The notes below the pieces were generated by a model, which was not told where the DNA came from, made no database searches, and was given only the letters and a program-made list of their open reading frames with translations. A DNA stretch of 64,000 nucleotides from Candidatus Saccharimonadota bacterium (lineage in GTDB: Bacteria; Patescibacteriota; Saccharimonadia; Saccharimonadales; Saccharimonadaceae), in assembly GCA_027450165.1 (NCBI GenBank), contig DAIDKE010000001.1, positions 196,373 through 260,372 of the forward strand. Direction: 5' to 3'. The translations under genes were made by a program, and so were the position numbers. Shown piece after piece: positions 50,394-55,987 of the stretch (within the stretch, counting starts at the first letter, position 1; every line of letters begins with the position of its first letter).

Positions 50394-50422
50394 TTGCGAC
50401 ATCTGCTAAATTGTCGTATGGT
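50394..50422 (+). promoter_or_regulatory. Promoter of the pilin run
   Basis: TTGCGA (50394-50399), 17-nt spacer, TATGGT (50417-50422). The ATG at 50433 is 10 nt beyond. Confidence 0.5.
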
Positions 50423-50432
50423 ATTAGTAGTT

Positions 50433-50846
50433 ATGAAGATAAAACAAAAAATCAAGATGACACTTACCGCAACCTTGGCGGTTTTTGCGTTAGGCGCATT
50501 GCCTGTTAATAGTGTTTTTGCGGCTAACGACGGATGTAATTACAATGGGGCGATCCTAAACGGCAGCACGCTCTGTAACACAAATTCGAGCGATCCGGCA
50601 CAAAAAAGTGCTGTTTGGGGCTTGCTGTTGTTGGTCATCAACATCCTTACCGCTGGTGTCGGTGTTGCGGCGGTTGGTGGGCTAATTTATGGCGCTATAC
50701 TGTGGTCGGCGGCTGGTGGCAACCCAGGCCAAGTGCAAAAGGCGCGCCAAATTATCACAAACGTCGTAATCGGTATTATTGCCTACGCTTTGATGTTTTC
50801 GTTCCTCAACTTCTTAGTGCCTGGCGGTATATTTAATAAAGGCTAG
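50433..50846 (+). CDS. Type IV secretion pilin-like protein (TrbC/VirB2-like), copy 1
   Basis: 137 aa. Signal peptide about residues 1-30 (ends SVFAAND), a short exported part with two cysteines (GCNYNGA, TLCNTN), then two membrane segments: AVWGLLLLVINILTAGVGVA and VVIGIIAYALMFSFLNFLV, joined by a short basic loop (GNPGQVQKARQ). This is the VirB2/TrbC pilin plan. The start at 50433 is chosen over 50394, because a promoter lies between. First of a run of five such genes. Confidence 0.75.
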   Translation: MKIKQKIKMTLTATLAVFALGALPVNSVFAANDGCNYNGAILNGSTLCNTNSSDPAQKSAVWGLLLLVINILTAGVGVAAVGGLIYGAILWSAAGGNPGQVQKARQIITNVVIGIIAYALMFSFLNFLVPGGIFNKG

Positions 50847-50857
50847 GAATTAAACTG

Positions 50858-51313
50858 ATGATATCGAAACTTAAACAAATAGTATCAATGGCAATACTGG
50901 TGGTTGCGTCGTCGGCGCTGGTTGGTTTAGCGGTTACCCCAGCAACTTATGCCGCAACCGCTGATGCAAGTTGTGATGCTACTTTTATAACCTTTCCGGC
51001 CTGGTATAATGGCCTGTCGACCAAGGTTAATGGCGAGTGTGCGATCATGTCGCCTAGTGATGCTGGCGGTTTGTCGACCTTTATTTGGCACGTCGTCTTA
51101 AATGTGCTGGCGATTTTACTGCAAGTGGTTGTTTATGTAACGGTTGCCATGATTATTTATGGCGGCTACATGCTACTGGCTAACGGCGGCAGCCCGGAAT
51201 CTGTATCCAAAGGTAAAACGACTATTCGACACGCAATCACTGGCCTTATTATTGCCCTGCTGGCGGTTGCGATTGTAAATGTACTTCTGGGCATTACGGC
51301 GGCACCAAAATAA
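50858..51313 (+). CDS. Pilin-like protein, copy 2
   Basis: 151 aa with signal peptide (about 1-31, ATYAATADAS), an exported part with two cysteines (DASCDATF, GECAIMS), and two membrane segments, WHVVLNVLAILLQVVVYVTV and ITGLIIALLAVAIVNVLLG, linked by NGGSPESVSKGKTTIRH. Clear VirB2/TrbC-like topology but the loop differs from the other copies. It follows copy 1 after 11 bases, and its TAA overlaps the next ATG (TAATG). Confidence 0.75.
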   Translation: MISKLKQIVSMAILVVASSALVGLAVTPATYAATADASCDATFITFPAWYNGLSTKVNGECAIMSPSDAGGLSTFIWHVVLNVLAILLQVVVYVTVAMIIYGGYMLLANGGSPESVSKGKTTIRHAITGLIIALLAVAIVNVLLGITAAPK

Positions 51314-51615
51314 TGAAATACTTACATACTTTTGCAGCTTTGATTAACGTTGGGGATAAGACCGGCGAGGTTAATATTCCGAATACCGACCCAACTATCG
51401 TTTGGCAAAATATACTGAATACCACCTACTTTTTTGCAGGTGTTGTGGCGGTTTTCGTGATTATTTACGCCGGGATGCGCTATATTTTGGCGCGCGGCAA
51501 AGAGGAAAACATTGTCAAAGCCAAAAACACGATTATTTATGCCATTTCGGGCCTGATTGTTATTTTACTGGCGTTTGTAATTACTAACTTTATCCTAGGG
51601 AGTTTCTCGAAATGA
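51313..51615 (+). CDS. Pilin-like protein, copy 3, no signal peptide
   Basis: 100 aa. It lacks the N-terminal signal segment of the other copies and begins MKYLHTFAALINVGDKTGE. Two membrane segments follow: LNTTYFFAGVVAVFVIIYAG and AISGLIVILLAFVITNFILG, with the shared loop YILARGKEENIVKAKNTI. No cysteine. It may be inserted by YidC without Sec signal cleavage or act as an assembly inhibitor; both are inference. Overlaps copies 2 and 4 at both ends. Confidence 0.7.
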   Translation: MKYLHTFAALINVGDKTGEVNIPNTDPTIVWQNILNTTYFFAGVVAVFVIIYAGMRYILARGKEENIVKAKNTIIYAISGLIVILLAFVITNFILGSFSK

Positions 51616-52010
51616 AAAAGCTAAAAACAATTATTCTATCAATCGTGACGGTTCTGGCACTTGGTTTGGTGCTCGTCCCCCAGCCGGTTGGGGCTGTCGA
51701 CACCGGCTTTGGTACCTGTGACACCACTAATTCCACCAGCACAATCTGTACTGGTGCCAAAAACGACACACTTAATCCATTCCTTCAAACCGGGGTTAGG
51801 GTTATGTTTTTCATAGTTGGAGCCCTAGCGGTGATTATGATTATTTACTCCGGTATCCAATACGTTATTTCAGCTGGTGATAGCGGTAAGGTGGCTAAAG
51901 CCAAGAACACTCTGACCTATTCAATAGTTGGTCTGGTGATCGCCTTTTTGGCCTACGCCATCGTCAACTGGATTCTTGGGCAACTCCAAAATGGTGGTAC
52001 GGGTAAGTAA
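51612..52010 (+). CDS. Pilin-like protein, copy 4
   Basis: 132 aa with a signal peptide (about 1-28, QPVGAVDTG), two cysteines (GTCDTTN, TICTGAK), and two membrane segments VMFFIVGALAVIMIIYSGIQ and IVGLVIAFLAYAIVNWILG, joined by YVISAGDSGKVAKAKNTLTY. Sequence is closest to copies 5 and 6. It overlaps copy 3 by ATGA and ends the first contiguous set. Confidence 0.78.
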   Translation: MKKLKTIILSIVTVLALGLVLVPQPVGAVDTGFGTCDTTNSTSTICTGAKNDTLNPFLQTGVRVMFFIVGALAVIMIIYSGIQYVISAGDSGKVAKAKNTLTYSIVGLVIAFLAYAIVNWILGQLQNGGTGK

Positions 52011-52078
52011 CACTTAACAAATAATAAAGAATCTGCTATAAAATATACTAGTTAGTTCAAAGAAAGGAATTTAATTAA

Positions 52079-52483
52079 ATGAAAAAAACCATCAAACAAG
52101 TACTCGCCGGCCTGCTGCTTGTGCCTGTGCTTGCACTTGGCGTTAGTGCGGTTGTGCCATCTGGTTCAGCTGCGGCCGACCCAGCCAGTCAGATCACTAG
52201 CGGTATTAACTCTACTAATGACAACACCGGTACAACCACTAGCCTGTCGAGTGTCTTTAAGACTGTCGTCAATGTCTTGCTATTCGTGATTGGTGCCGTT
52301 AGCGTTGTGATGCTGATCGTTGGTGGTATTCGCTACACCCTATCAGCTGGCAATAGCTCGGCAGTTACGGCTGCAAAGAACACCATTATGTATGCCATCA
52401 TTGGTTTGGTGGTAGCTTTCCTAGCCTATGCCATTGTCAACTGGGTGCTCGGCGCACTTCAGGGCAACGCAGCTACATCTTAA
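52079..52483 (+). CDS. Pilin-like protein, copy 5
   Basis: 134 aa with signal peptide (about 1-34, SGSAAADPA), a short exported stretch without cysteine, and two membrane segments VFKTVVNVLLFVIGAVSVVM and IIGLVVAFLAYAIVNWVLG, with loop RYTLSAGNSSAVTAAKNTIM. It has its own AT-rich promoter region (TATAAA near 52036) and an AAAGGAA ribosome site, set off by 68 bases from copy 4. It might be the major pilin because of this separate control. Confidence 0.78.
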   Translation: MKKTIKQVLAGLLLVPVLALGVSAVVPSGSAAADPASQITSGINSTNDNTGTTTSLSSVFKTVVNVLLFVIGAVSVVMLIVGGIRYTLSAGNSSAVTAAKNTIMYAIIGLVVAFLAYAIVNWVLGALQGNAATS

Positions 52484-53125: not shown

Positions 53126-53791
53126 ATGCTTGATAACCTACTGTCAATTGTGGCTCCGCACCTCTGTTATGGATGCGGTAAAACCGGCACATTATTATGC
53201 CAAAGTTGTAAATACGACATCGTTAATGACAAAAATGAGGCATGTTTGGTGTGCCTTGGGCCGGCTCGGAGCGGCGAGATTTGCAGCCGTTGTGACGTAG
53301 CTTACGAAAAGGGTTGGTTTATTGCTGAGCGTGAAGGTCCACTAAAGGATTTGATCGATGCTTATAAATTTCAACGCGCTAAAGCGGGTTATGCGGTGCT
53401 GGCCGAGCTTTTGGGTTCTAGTTTGCCTGAACTAACCCCCGAGACGTTTATTGTGCCAATACCGACCGCCGGCGATCATATTCGTCAGCGTGGTTACGAC
53501 CACTTGGCGCTTATCGCCAAGGAGTTCGGTCGCCTGCGACACTTGCCCGTTCTGCCAGTAGTTAAGCGTTTAACAAATTTAACCCAACATGACTTAAGCG
53601 CTGAAGAACGCGAACTGGCCGCCAGTCGGGCGTTCATTGTTGAAGCCAAACTCGATCCGGGAGCCACTTACCTGCTACTTGACGACATTATGACCACTGG
53701 CGCCACTTTAAAATATGCCGCCGAGGCAATGCGCGCGGCCGGAGCCGAGCATATATTTGCGGCAGTTATCGCCAGACAGGCTCTCGACTGA
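53126..53791 (+). CDS. comF: ComF family phosphoribosyltransferase-like protein
   Basis: A 221-aa protein with an N-terminal double zinc-ribbon (CYGCGKTGTLLCQSC, CLVCLGPARSGEICSRC) and a phosphoribosyltransferase domain ending with the PRPP loop TYLLLDDIMTTGATLK. IVPIPTAGDHIRQRGYDHLA is the ComF/GntX hallmark. ComF helps single-stranded DNA uptake in naturally competent bacteria. With a type IV machine nearby and no relaxase, a role in DNA uptake is worth testing but is inference. The start is at 53126; a TATAAT lies ~35 bases before it. Confidence 0.9.
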   Translation: MLDNLLSIVAPHLCYGCGKTGTLLCQSCKYDIVNDKNEACLVCLGPARSGEICSRCDVAYEKGWFIAEREGPLKDLIDAYKFQRAKAGYAVLAELLGSSLPELTPETFIVPIPTAGDHIRQRGYDHLALIAKEFGRLRHLPVLPVVKRLTNLTQHDLSAEERELAASRAFIVEAKLDPGATYLLLDDIMTTGATLKYAAEAMRAAGAEHIFAAVIARQALD

Positions 53792-53821: not shown

Positions 53822-53827
53822 TATAAT
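53822..53827 (+). promoter_or_regulatory. -10 box of the homing endonuclease gene
   Basis: TATAAT with exactly 6 nt to the ATG at 53834. Confidence 0.55.
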
Positions 53828-53833
53828 TGCCTT

Positions 53834-54466
53834 ATGTCGAGCAGAAAAACGGTAACTATCCCAGCTCACTCTGAAGATTTAGCCGAGTTTTTTGGAATTA
53901 TGATTGGGGATGGTTGCATAACCAAATATCAGATCTCAGTTACCCTAGATAGGCTTACTGACTCAAAATTTTGCGAATACGTAGCCTCGCTCATAGGCAG
54001 GCTTTTTGACGTAAGGGTGTCGATAAGAGATCGTCCGAACAGGGGCTGTGTTGTGATAGTCGTGTCGTCGATTGCGGTGGTTGATTTTTTAACAAGCAAC
54101 GGGTTGTCGATTGGCAATAAAATTCGCGCCGGTGTTGATATACCTCGGTGGATTAGTGATAACTCGGTATTTGCGAAGGCTTGCATAAGGGGCATTTTTG
54201 ATACCGACGGCTGTATTTATCTCGAAACACACAGATTAGGCAGTGGCGTATATAGATACCCCAGAATGGCTATAGTTAGTGCTTCGGCTAACCTAAGATA
54301 CCCTCTTAACTTAATTATGCGCGATATGGGATTAAGCTCAAAAATCAGGAACAATCGAAGTGTAACGATAGAAAGATTTACAGATATAGAAGAATACTTT
54401 AAAATGGTTGGCAGTAGTAATCCAAAGCACATAGGTAGATTTACTGCTTTTGGAGGGGTCGGATAG
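53834..54466 (+). CDS. LAGLIDADG homing endonuclease, free-standing
   Basis: A 210-aa protein with the two LAGLIDADG-type helices of a single-chain enzyme: LAEFFGIMIGDGCI near residue 13 and ACIRGIFDTDGCIYL near residue 117, each with the catalytic acidic residue. These enzymes cut a long target site and copy their own gene into it. No intron or intein surrounds it: it has its own -10 box and start. Its last 15 bases, including the TAG stop, lie within the 5' end of tRNA-Ser(TGA). The target could be the tRNA region. Codon use looks similar to neighbours. Confidence 0.85.
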   Translation: MSSRKTVTIPAHSEDLAEFFGIMIGDGCITKYQISVTLDRLTDSKFCEYVASLIGRLFDVRVSIRDRPNRGCVVIVVSSIAVVDFLTSNGLSIGNKIRAGVDIPRWISDNSVFAKACIRGIFDTDGCIYLETHRLGSGVYRYPRMAIVSASANLRYPLNLIMRDMGLSSKIRNNRSVTIERFTDIEEYFKMVGSSNPKHIGRFTAFGGVG

Positions 54467-54539
54467 TGGTTTATTCCAGCGGTCTTGAAAACCGCCAAGT
54501 CGCAAGGCTTCGCGAGTTCGAATCTCGCCCCCTCCGCCA
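54452..54539 (+). tRNA. tRNA-Ser (anticodon TGA)
   Basis: Acceptor GGAGGGG pairs with CCCCTCC, discriminator G, encoded CCA. Anticodon stem GCGGT/ACCGC with loop CTTGAAA. A long variable arm (CAAGTCGCAAGGCTTCGCG region) is typical of class II tRNA-Ser. The first 15 bases also encode the end of the homing endonuclease gene. Confidence 0.95.
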
Positions 54540-54572
54540 ATAAAAATAACCGAGTAATCGGTTATTTTTATT
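54539..54572. terminator. Terminator after tRNA-Ser(TGA)
   Basis: AATAAAAATAACCG and CGGTTATTTTTATT form a 14-bp hairpin around a 6-nt loop. It is symmetric, so it can act for both strands. Confidence 0.8.
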
Positions 54573-54591
54573 GCACTGCATGACAATAACT

Positions 54592-54897: not shown

Positions 54898-54968
54898 AAT
54901 ACCTCCTAGGGTTTTGAGTAGTTTATTTTTATCGCTTAGCGAATGGAGTCGTGCTCAGGACTCACGTA

Positions 54969-54989
54969 GAAAGTTCTAGGCGAACTTTC
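54969..54989. terminator. Hairpin after the orphan gene at 54992
   Basis: GAAAGTT and AACTTTC form a 7-bp hairpin around CTAGGCG, directly 3' of the GC-rich orphan on the minus strand. No clear T-run, so it may be only a weak terminator. Confidence 0.4.
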
Positions 54990-54991
54990 GG

Positions 54992-55192
54992 TCAGTGGTT
55001 CGGGTTGATCTGGTCGTAGACCGTGTCGCCGCTCTCGCTGATGACGATGTGGCGGTGGTCGCTCGGGTACCCCGGCTCGGAGATGATGATGTCCGTCTGG
55101 GGTGCTCCGGTCTTGCCGTCGGTTCCGGCGTTGACCTTGACGGTTGCGTCAGGGCCGCTGCTCTGAACGTCGTAGCCCATCCTTGCTCCCAT
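54992..55192 (-). CDS. Small GC-rich orphan gene
   Basis: A 66-aa frame with start at 55192 or 55180; GGGAG at 5 nt before the latter supports 55180. No family recognised. The sequence is visibly richer in G+C and uses different codons from its neighbours, but the upstream region is AT-rich. Two other open frames overlap here, so the choice is moderately sure; this one has the most ordinary amino-acid mix (DIIISEPGYPSDHRHIVISE). Possibly acquired. Confidence 0.4.
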   Translation of the reverse strand: MGARMGYDVQSSGPDATVKVNAGTDGKTGAPQTDIIISEPGYPSDHRHIVISESGDTVYDQINPNH

Positions 55193-55345
55193 GGTTTCAC
55201 CACTGCTGTGGTGGTGCTGGCCCTGTTTGGTGTGGGTAGTCCTATGCGCTGGCCGCCAGCTTAGCTTACACACCCGGTGAACTACCTATATTTATGATAT
55301 AACATATTTTACAATTAGTGCAACGTAAACATATATATCGTACAG

Positions 55346-55585: not shown

Positions 55586-55987
55586 ATGAAGCGGAAAGTC
55601 CTGGCCTACATCCCTGTTCTTGTTGTTGCCCTGGTGCTGGCTAGCCAGATTTTTGCACCGTTATCGGCGCACGCTTTGTCGATTGTTGATGGCGCCAATG
55701 CTGCGCGCGGCAGCGGTCAGCCGGAATATTTGTTTGGTAATGGCGGTCTAGTTTCGACAATCGTGAACTTTATGCTGTTTGCGGTTGGTGCGCTGAGTGT
55801 GGTTATGATTATGTTCGGTGGCTTGCGCTACGTTCTGTCGGGCGGTAATTCGTCGGCTGTTGCGGCTGCAAAAAACACCATTCTTTATGCAATTATCGGT
55901 TTGGTGGTGGCGTTTTTCGCCTATGCAATCGTGCAATTTATCACCAGTGCCCTAACCGGCTCGATAACGGCGCCAACTAACGTCTAA
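55586..55987 (+). CDS. Pilin-like protein, copy 6 (outlying)
   Basis: 133 aa, most similar to copies 4 and 5: signal peptide (about 1-31, SAHALSIVD), then VNFMLFAVGALSVVMIMFGG and IIGLVVAFFAYAIVQFITSA joined by RYVLSGGNSSAVAAAKNTIL. No cysteine. It stands alone 3.1 kb from the pilin run, beyond hsp20, comF and two tRNAs. It has a near-perfect AAGGAGGT ribosome site 3 nt before the ATG, stronger than the other copies. Followed by a small membrane protein. Confidence 0.78.
   Translation: MKRKVLAYIPVLVVALVLASQIFAPLSAHALSIVDGANAARGSGQPEYLFGNGGLVSTIVNFMLFAVGALSVVMIMFGGLRYVLSGGNSSAVAAAKNTILYAIIGLVVAFFAYAIVQFITSALTGSITAPTNV

Follow-up and report, generated by a model that had tools for sequence, protein, structure and literature searches.

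A serine tRNA gene with anticodon TGA is preceded, in the 64,000-nucleotide (nt) stretch of DNA analyzed here (the window), by a gene for a LAGLIDADG homing endonuclease (HEG) whose 3' end lies inside the tRNA. We propose, with a probability of roughly 80%, that this locus holds a homing element that consists of a promoter, the LAGLIDADG gene, and a replacement 5' half of the tRNA, and that would act through the cycle set out below. The host is a tiny symbiotic bacterium. Its genome assembly comprises 794 kb in seven contigs, and the nearest named relative at the HEG-tRNA locus is a Candidatus Saccharibacteria assembly (L007). The features of the locus are listed in Table 1.

Table 1. Features of the HEG-tRNA locus in the window
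Feature	Coordinates	Strand	Description and evidence
Host comF-family gene, upstream of the insertion	53126..53791	+	NCBIfam ComF, E 4.8e-23; synteny
-10 box TATAAT	53822..53827	+	Sequence; 6-nt spacing to the ATG common among relatives
LAGLIDADG HEG	53834..54466	+	Free-standing, ATG start, 210 aa; Pfam, AF2 model, fold match, alignment
HEG/tRNA overlap	54452..54466	+	Last four HEG codons and TAG; tRNA nt 1-15
Element-type replacement tRNA 5' half	54452..54473	+	Acceptor 5' strand, U8-C9, D-arm with T13; sequence comparison
tRNA-Ser(TGA), CCA encoded	54452..54539	+	ARAGORN; Rfam 53.4 bits, E 1e-8
Terminator-like hairpin directly 3' of the tRNA	54537..54574	+	Fold -19.5 kcal/mol, z -8.3

The initial annotation described an endonuclease gene that shares 15 bases, its TAG stop included, with tRNA-Ser(TGA). 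The coordinates, ARAGORN, and Rfam all agreed with this overlap. Codons 207 to 210 (GGA GGG GTC GGA, encoding GGVG) and the stop codon (54464-54466) coincide with nt 1 to 15 of the tRNA. The tRNA sequence does double as coding sequence, as had been noted; the bases concerned are those of the 5' half that the element carries, and they are unlike the resident sequence. The Ser(TGA) pattern matched the source genome (G000) only once, at this tRNA. The terminator-like hairpin would close the HEG-tRNA unit. Elsewhere in the window, a short GC-rich stretch at 54950-55270 (61% GC versus 40 to 50% around it) carries a 93-aa open reading frame (ORF) on the minus strand. This ORF had no Pfam match, and the stretch is possibly foreign. 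A run of small ORFs that resemble membrane proteins and have similar C-terminal halves (about 100 to 150 aa) occupies 50394-52483 and 55586-55987; these ORFs look like members of a repeated, pilin-like family.

Two LAGLIDADG motifs, LAEFFGIMIGDG (residues 16 to 27) and CIRGIFDTDG (residues 117 to 126), are present in the HEG protein, which matched Pfam LAGLIDADG_3 with an E value of 1.1e-6. The AF2 model was confident (pLDDT of 92.5 and pTM of 0.90), and its best match in the PDB was I-Tsp061I (2dch; TM of 0.72 to 0.74), with inteins and I-DmoI also matched. The earlier description of a two-motif LAGLIDADG endonuclease was thus upheld. Together with a presence/absence polymorphism at a fixed site, the motifs and the fold argue for membership in the LAGLIDADG homing endonucleases, and the protein would be expected to cleave DNA. 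Residues G25-D26-G27 and D123-T124-D125-G126 were invariant in an alignment of 14 sequences. WhiA folds also resembled the model (rank 5 of the structure matches); a noncatalytic WhiA-like protein was rejected in view of the invariant catalytic aspartates. The window protein is a short form without the approximately 115-aa N-terminal extension of its siblings. The extension is present in most relatives, among them L002, L008, L010, and L015, and combines a weak helix-turn-helix signal with the conserved motif YGxxGT...R..GG..S. In the Pfam search, it matched no family above the cutoff, and the helix-turn-helix matches were below the threshold.

Next, we compared the locus in genomes with and without the endonuclease. 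In most HEG-less genomes of the family, tRNA-Ser(TGA) directly follows comF, the end of which is typically about 35 to 60 nt from the tRNA. The HEG is found exactly between comF and the tRNA in five HEG-bearing genomes of the family, namely, the window, L002, L003, L004, and L007. The HEG is therefore an insertion, since HEG-less family members keep comF adjoining the tRNA. The HEG occurs in 6 of 393 genomes of the order, and this patchy distribution, with the occupied and empty sites, supports a mobile element over a gene constantly inherited by vertical descent. The HEGs of L007 and L018 are frameshifted, and that of L005 is reduced to a 50-aa C-terminal remnant; these copies are in keeping with the gain-decay-loss cycle expected of homing endonucleases. 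A vertically inherited host gene of a tRNA operon, such as a tRNA regulator or a WhiA-like DNA-binding protein, would be in keeping with the WhiA-like fold and with the conserved tRNA association across the phylum. We consider such a host gene very unlikely given its patchiness, its frameshifted and truncated copies, the invariance of the catalytic aspartates, and the fact that the tRNAs and flanks differ between lineages. Two other sources were also rejected. An integrase island at the tRNA was dismissed because the LAGLIDADG gene is the only gene between comF and the tRNA, with no integrase or recombinase at the locus, and because the replaced part is the 5' end of the tRNA, not the 3' end. 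A phage origin of the HEG was rejected on the basis of zero matches among 50,697 phage records and of none confirmed in the viral contigs searched.

The association with tRNA genes recurs across the phylum. When 380 genomes representing the phylum were searched with a family profile, 25 were positive. Eighteen of the matches were strong, with E values below 1e-45, and 17 of these HEGs are positioned immediately 5' of a same-strand tRNA, namely, Ser(TGA), Ser(GGA), Ser(GCT), Ser(CGA), or Tyr(GTA). These 17 HEGs end between -39 and +21 nt from the tRNA start: 13 overlap the tRNA by 14 to 39 nt, and four stop 15 to 21 nt before it. A chance overlap or local accident is excluded, since 17 of 18 strong relatives end no more than 40 nt from the start of a tRNA on the same strand, and the idea of the tRNA as a conserved target gained support from this recurrence at Ser and Tyr tRNAs. 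The exception is L120 (in G713), a strong family member that lies about 18 nt from an antisense tRNA-Ser(GGA) and faces its 3' end. In a tree of 35 proteins, the endonucleases grouped by tRNA (9 label changes, with a minimum of 8; 0 of 200 shuffles were as low), and the SerCGA, SerGCT, and Tyr endonucleases each formed one supported clade. The stop codon is TAG at tRNA nt 13 to 15 in most Ser(TGA) and Tyr elements and is TAA or TGA within the D-arm, D-loop, or anticodon loop in others. L130 (G546) uses the TGA of its Ser(TGA) anticodon as the HEG stop, and the HEGs of L129 (Tyr) and L116 (Ser GCT) terminate at a TAA that overlaps the anticodon. More relatives were present in the genome collection, including in Moranbacteria, Doudnabacteria, an Elusimicrobia metagenome-assembled genome, and DPANN archaea. 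The DPANN relatives L017, L019, L020, L021, L022, and L023 adjoin tRNA genes (His, Gln, and Leu), some apparently intron containing, and L020 has an isolated tRNA 3' half downstream. A differently arranged archaeal branch is likely.

In about a dozen relatives, the HEG is closely preceded by a decayed tRNA 5' half. Examples are GGAAGGATGCGTGAGCGGTTGAC in L009, GGAGAGGTGCCAGAGTGGTAGA in L014, and, at a Tyr locus, GAGATGATACCGAAGTGGTTAAC in L139; at the same comF locus as that of the window, the relics are GGGTGGTTGCTCGAGTAGTATAA (L003) and GGAAAGCTGTCTAAGCAGTTTAA (L004). When scored with a profile built from native 5' halves, 11 loci representing 10 distinct elements exceeded all 400 dinucleotide shuffles (floor P value of 1/401), and these 11 relics sit 8 to 43 nt before the HEG start. 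Every relic ends in the D-loop, and the insertion point is therefore marked there, inside the tRNA gene. As far as sequence can tell, the insertion is within the tRNA gene, with the displaced native end kept beside the element in relatives. These relics argue against the suggestion of the initial annotation that the element homed into the flank 5' of the tRNA. With the same profile, no relic was detectable upstream of the HEG in the window (P = 0.33) or in L002, so that the displaced half of the window is argued from its siblings L003 and L004. One deletion may have removed both the relic and the N-terminal extension in the window copy.

To characterize the half supplied by the element, Ser(TGA) alleles were compared at 113 loci, 107 HEG-less and 6 HEG-linked. 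In 103 of the 107 HEG-less alleles, nt 13 to 15 read GAG and nt 8 to 9 read TG; all 6 HEG-linked alleles have TAG and TC at these positions. The TAG at nt 13 to 15 is the HEG stop; it exists only in the supplied version, and the native version has no stop there in the HEG frame. Over nt 1 to 22, the five HEG-bearing family genomes are 95 to 100% identical. The identity between supplied and native halves averages 68% and reaches at most 79%, versus a mean of 89% among native halves. The D-stem is altered on both strands, for example, from ACC/GGT to GGA/TCC, and the cloverleaf is thus kept. At the same locus, relic and supplied half are 42 to 75% identical over nt 8 to 19. From relic to supplied half, the change is GAG or AAG to TAG for Ser(TGA) and likewise for Tyr, GAG or GAA to AAG for most CGA elements, and TAG to GAG for the GGA elements L011 and L013. 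Searches of the orders to which G633 and G569 belong returned almost no native Ser(CGA) or Ser(GGA) genes; native Ser(CGA) was compared by use of a phylum-wide set. Supplied halves pair with the 3' acceptor strand at 7 of 7 positions, and relics pair at 1 to 6 of 7. The tRNA-Tyr genes provide an independent case, with GGGCGGTTCGTATAGTGG in the HEG-bearing gene versus GGGCAGGTGGTAGAGCGG and others in HEG-less genes. On these comparisons, the element appears to supply a functional, divergent replacement 5' end. Being different from the resident half would be the constant feature, and this difference would prevent recutting.

The same data bear on a simpler reading, in which an ordinary free-standing HEG sits in the intergenic 5' flank, its stop codon has later drifted into the tRNA, and dual coding accounts for the odd D-arm. 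The window without a relic and the four strong relatives that stop short of the tRNA are what this reading would predict. It is nonetheless unlikely, because it leaves the upstream tRNA relics of about a dozen elements without a place, and because the D-arm changes go beyond the stop codon to include the compensating D-stem strand. In addition, the relic and the supplied half of L009 differ even though its HEG does not overlap the tRNA, and the GGA elements swap in the opposite direction. The pairing of the relics also bears on a location of the HEG in a tRNA intron, with the relic as the 5' exon and the HEG segment spliced out. In some DPANN relatives, the gene does closely precede a tRNA in which ARAGORN predicts an intron, and the nearest solved structure is that of an archaeal intron-encoded enzyme. 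Such an intron is barely credible here: the downstream tRNA is complete by itself, the Rfam scan of the window returned only tRNAs, with no intron family and no group I intron match, and relics are missing in several genomes. Where relics are present, their incomplete pairing with the 3' acceptor strand speaks against splicing to the 3' half. Hosting by an intron or intein was rejected on these grounds, in line with the earlier observation that neither was visible. We therefore retain the insertion of an element that replaces the tRNA 5' half.

Some HEG-less genes resemble the supplied version. Four HEG-less Ser(TGA) alleles in two genera have TC/TAG (L062 and L194 in genus g2; L105 and L195 in genus g19), and the two in genus g2 have a 3' half like those of native congeners and a native-looking promoter upstream. 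We read these alleles as recombinants that kept the putatively resistant half or as scars left after loss of the element, but they may be native variants. Several CPR families also have HEG-like D-arms (TC..TAG or TACCGAAGTGGTCATA) in their HEG-less Ser(CGA) and Ser(GGA) tRNAs (L172-L175, L189-L193, L163, and L120); these are possibly scars of past homing or donor types. Since supplied D-arm types are present in HEG-less tRNAs, the sequence does not prove immunity, and this is our main reservation. The 3' halves of L002 and of the scar-like L062 resemble those of congeners. A rule that the tRNA 3' half is always of the host type was dropped, however, because the 3' half of the HEG-bearing tRNA-Tyr matches only one of two native types; co-conversion may thus reach further.

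In 15 of 25 loci, including the window, a -10 box ends precisely 6 nt upstream of the HEG start codon (null mean, 0.41), versus 4 of 61 ORFs of the window with this spacing. The TATAAT box of the window is probably the element's own promoter, as the initial annotation had assumed, with a leaderless start: because the box ends 6 nt before the start codon, transcription would begin at or near that codon and yield a leaderless mRNA. Since the HEG reading frame extends into the tRNA, there is no space for a tRNA promoter of its own, and the HEG and the tRNA should share a precursor; the tRNA-containing precursor predicted earlier is supported to this extent. RNase P would then have to free the tRNA from the joint transcript, also removing the HEG stop codon.

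We propose the following cycle for the element. The enzyme would recognize the intact D-arm and D-loop of the resident tRNA-Ser(TGA) and cut near the D-loop. Repair on the element-bearing allele would insert the element inside the tRNA gene and strand the old promoter and the first 21 to 23 nt or so of the tRNA upstream, where relatives carry the relics that are not detectable in the window. The 3' end of the element, formed by the last HEG codons, would supply the new 5' half; the cloverleaf at the locus is complete. The D-arm differences seen between the supplied and resident halves should stop recutting. From the -10 box, one leaderless transcript would carry both the endonuclease and the tRNA, and RNase P would free the tRNA 5' end. 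After spread, the element would decay and be lost. With a single copy of a presumably essential tRNA, a cell would not survive faulty repair and could hardly delete the element cleanly. More broadly, we lean toward the view that this is a natural home-and-rescue drive, widespread in Patescibacteria, directed at essential class II tRNA genes (Ser and Tyr), which combines a D-loop cut, insertion, a cleavage-resistant 5' half doubling as the HEG end, and competition between mRNA and tRNA via RNase P.

If this is true, bacteria host a widespread selfish element that carries an altered rescue copy of its essential target, and such a copy would solve the main problem of a homing drive, namely, damage and resistance at an essential target. 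It would account for the sudden changes of D-arm seen throughout Patescibacteria in tRNAs for serine and tyrosine and for the placement of a protein stop codon at tRNA nt 13 to 15. It also predicts a conflict between translation of the nuclease and maturation of the tRNA.

Our literature search, the scope of which did not extend to subscription papers and preprints, returned no report of a homing endonuclease replacing a tRNA 5' half. The closest known kind is that of the mORFs of fungal mitochondria, known from Allomyces atp6 and from Glomus atp6, atp9, cox2, and nad3 (PMC3630166). They share an endonuclease ORF inside a host gene, a divergent replacement end, and a displaced native end kept alongside (PMC3630166). 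The mORFs, however, affect the 3' ends of mitochondrial protein genes, whereas the element described here affects the 5' half of bacterial tRNA genes, and here, unlike in mORFs, the replaced part encodes the C terminus and stop of the HEG and the element supplies the promoter. SegB of phages T4 and T6 is likewise a free-standing homing endonuclease that adjoins tRNA genes and cuts within them (PMC13096335, citing Brok-Volchanskaya 2008). It differs in belonging to the GIY-YIG family and in residing in phage tRNA clusters, and the account of it in PMC13096335, as far as available, describes no displaced half or recoded rescue. The insertions in CPR rRNA genes (I-ShaI) come from the same phylum and nuclease superfamily, with LAGLIDADG_3 and a variable N-terminal region, but they are sited in rRNA introns or insertion sequences, and the main text of that report does not mention tRNA (PMC11270868). 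Saccharibacteria are reported to be nearly free of rRNA insertions bearing homing endonucleases (PMC11270868) and would carry such enzymes in a tRNA gene instead. I-Tsp061I (PDB 2dch), the closest solved fold, shares the two LAGLIDADG motifs but is an archaeal intron-encoded enzyme with about 21% identity. In principle, the element resembles the synthetic home-and-rescue drive HomeR, which, as outlined in PMC7968924, homes into an essential gene with a recoded rescue. HomeR is an engineered Cas9 drive in flies (PMC7968924) and is thus an analogy to the element proposed here, not a homologue.
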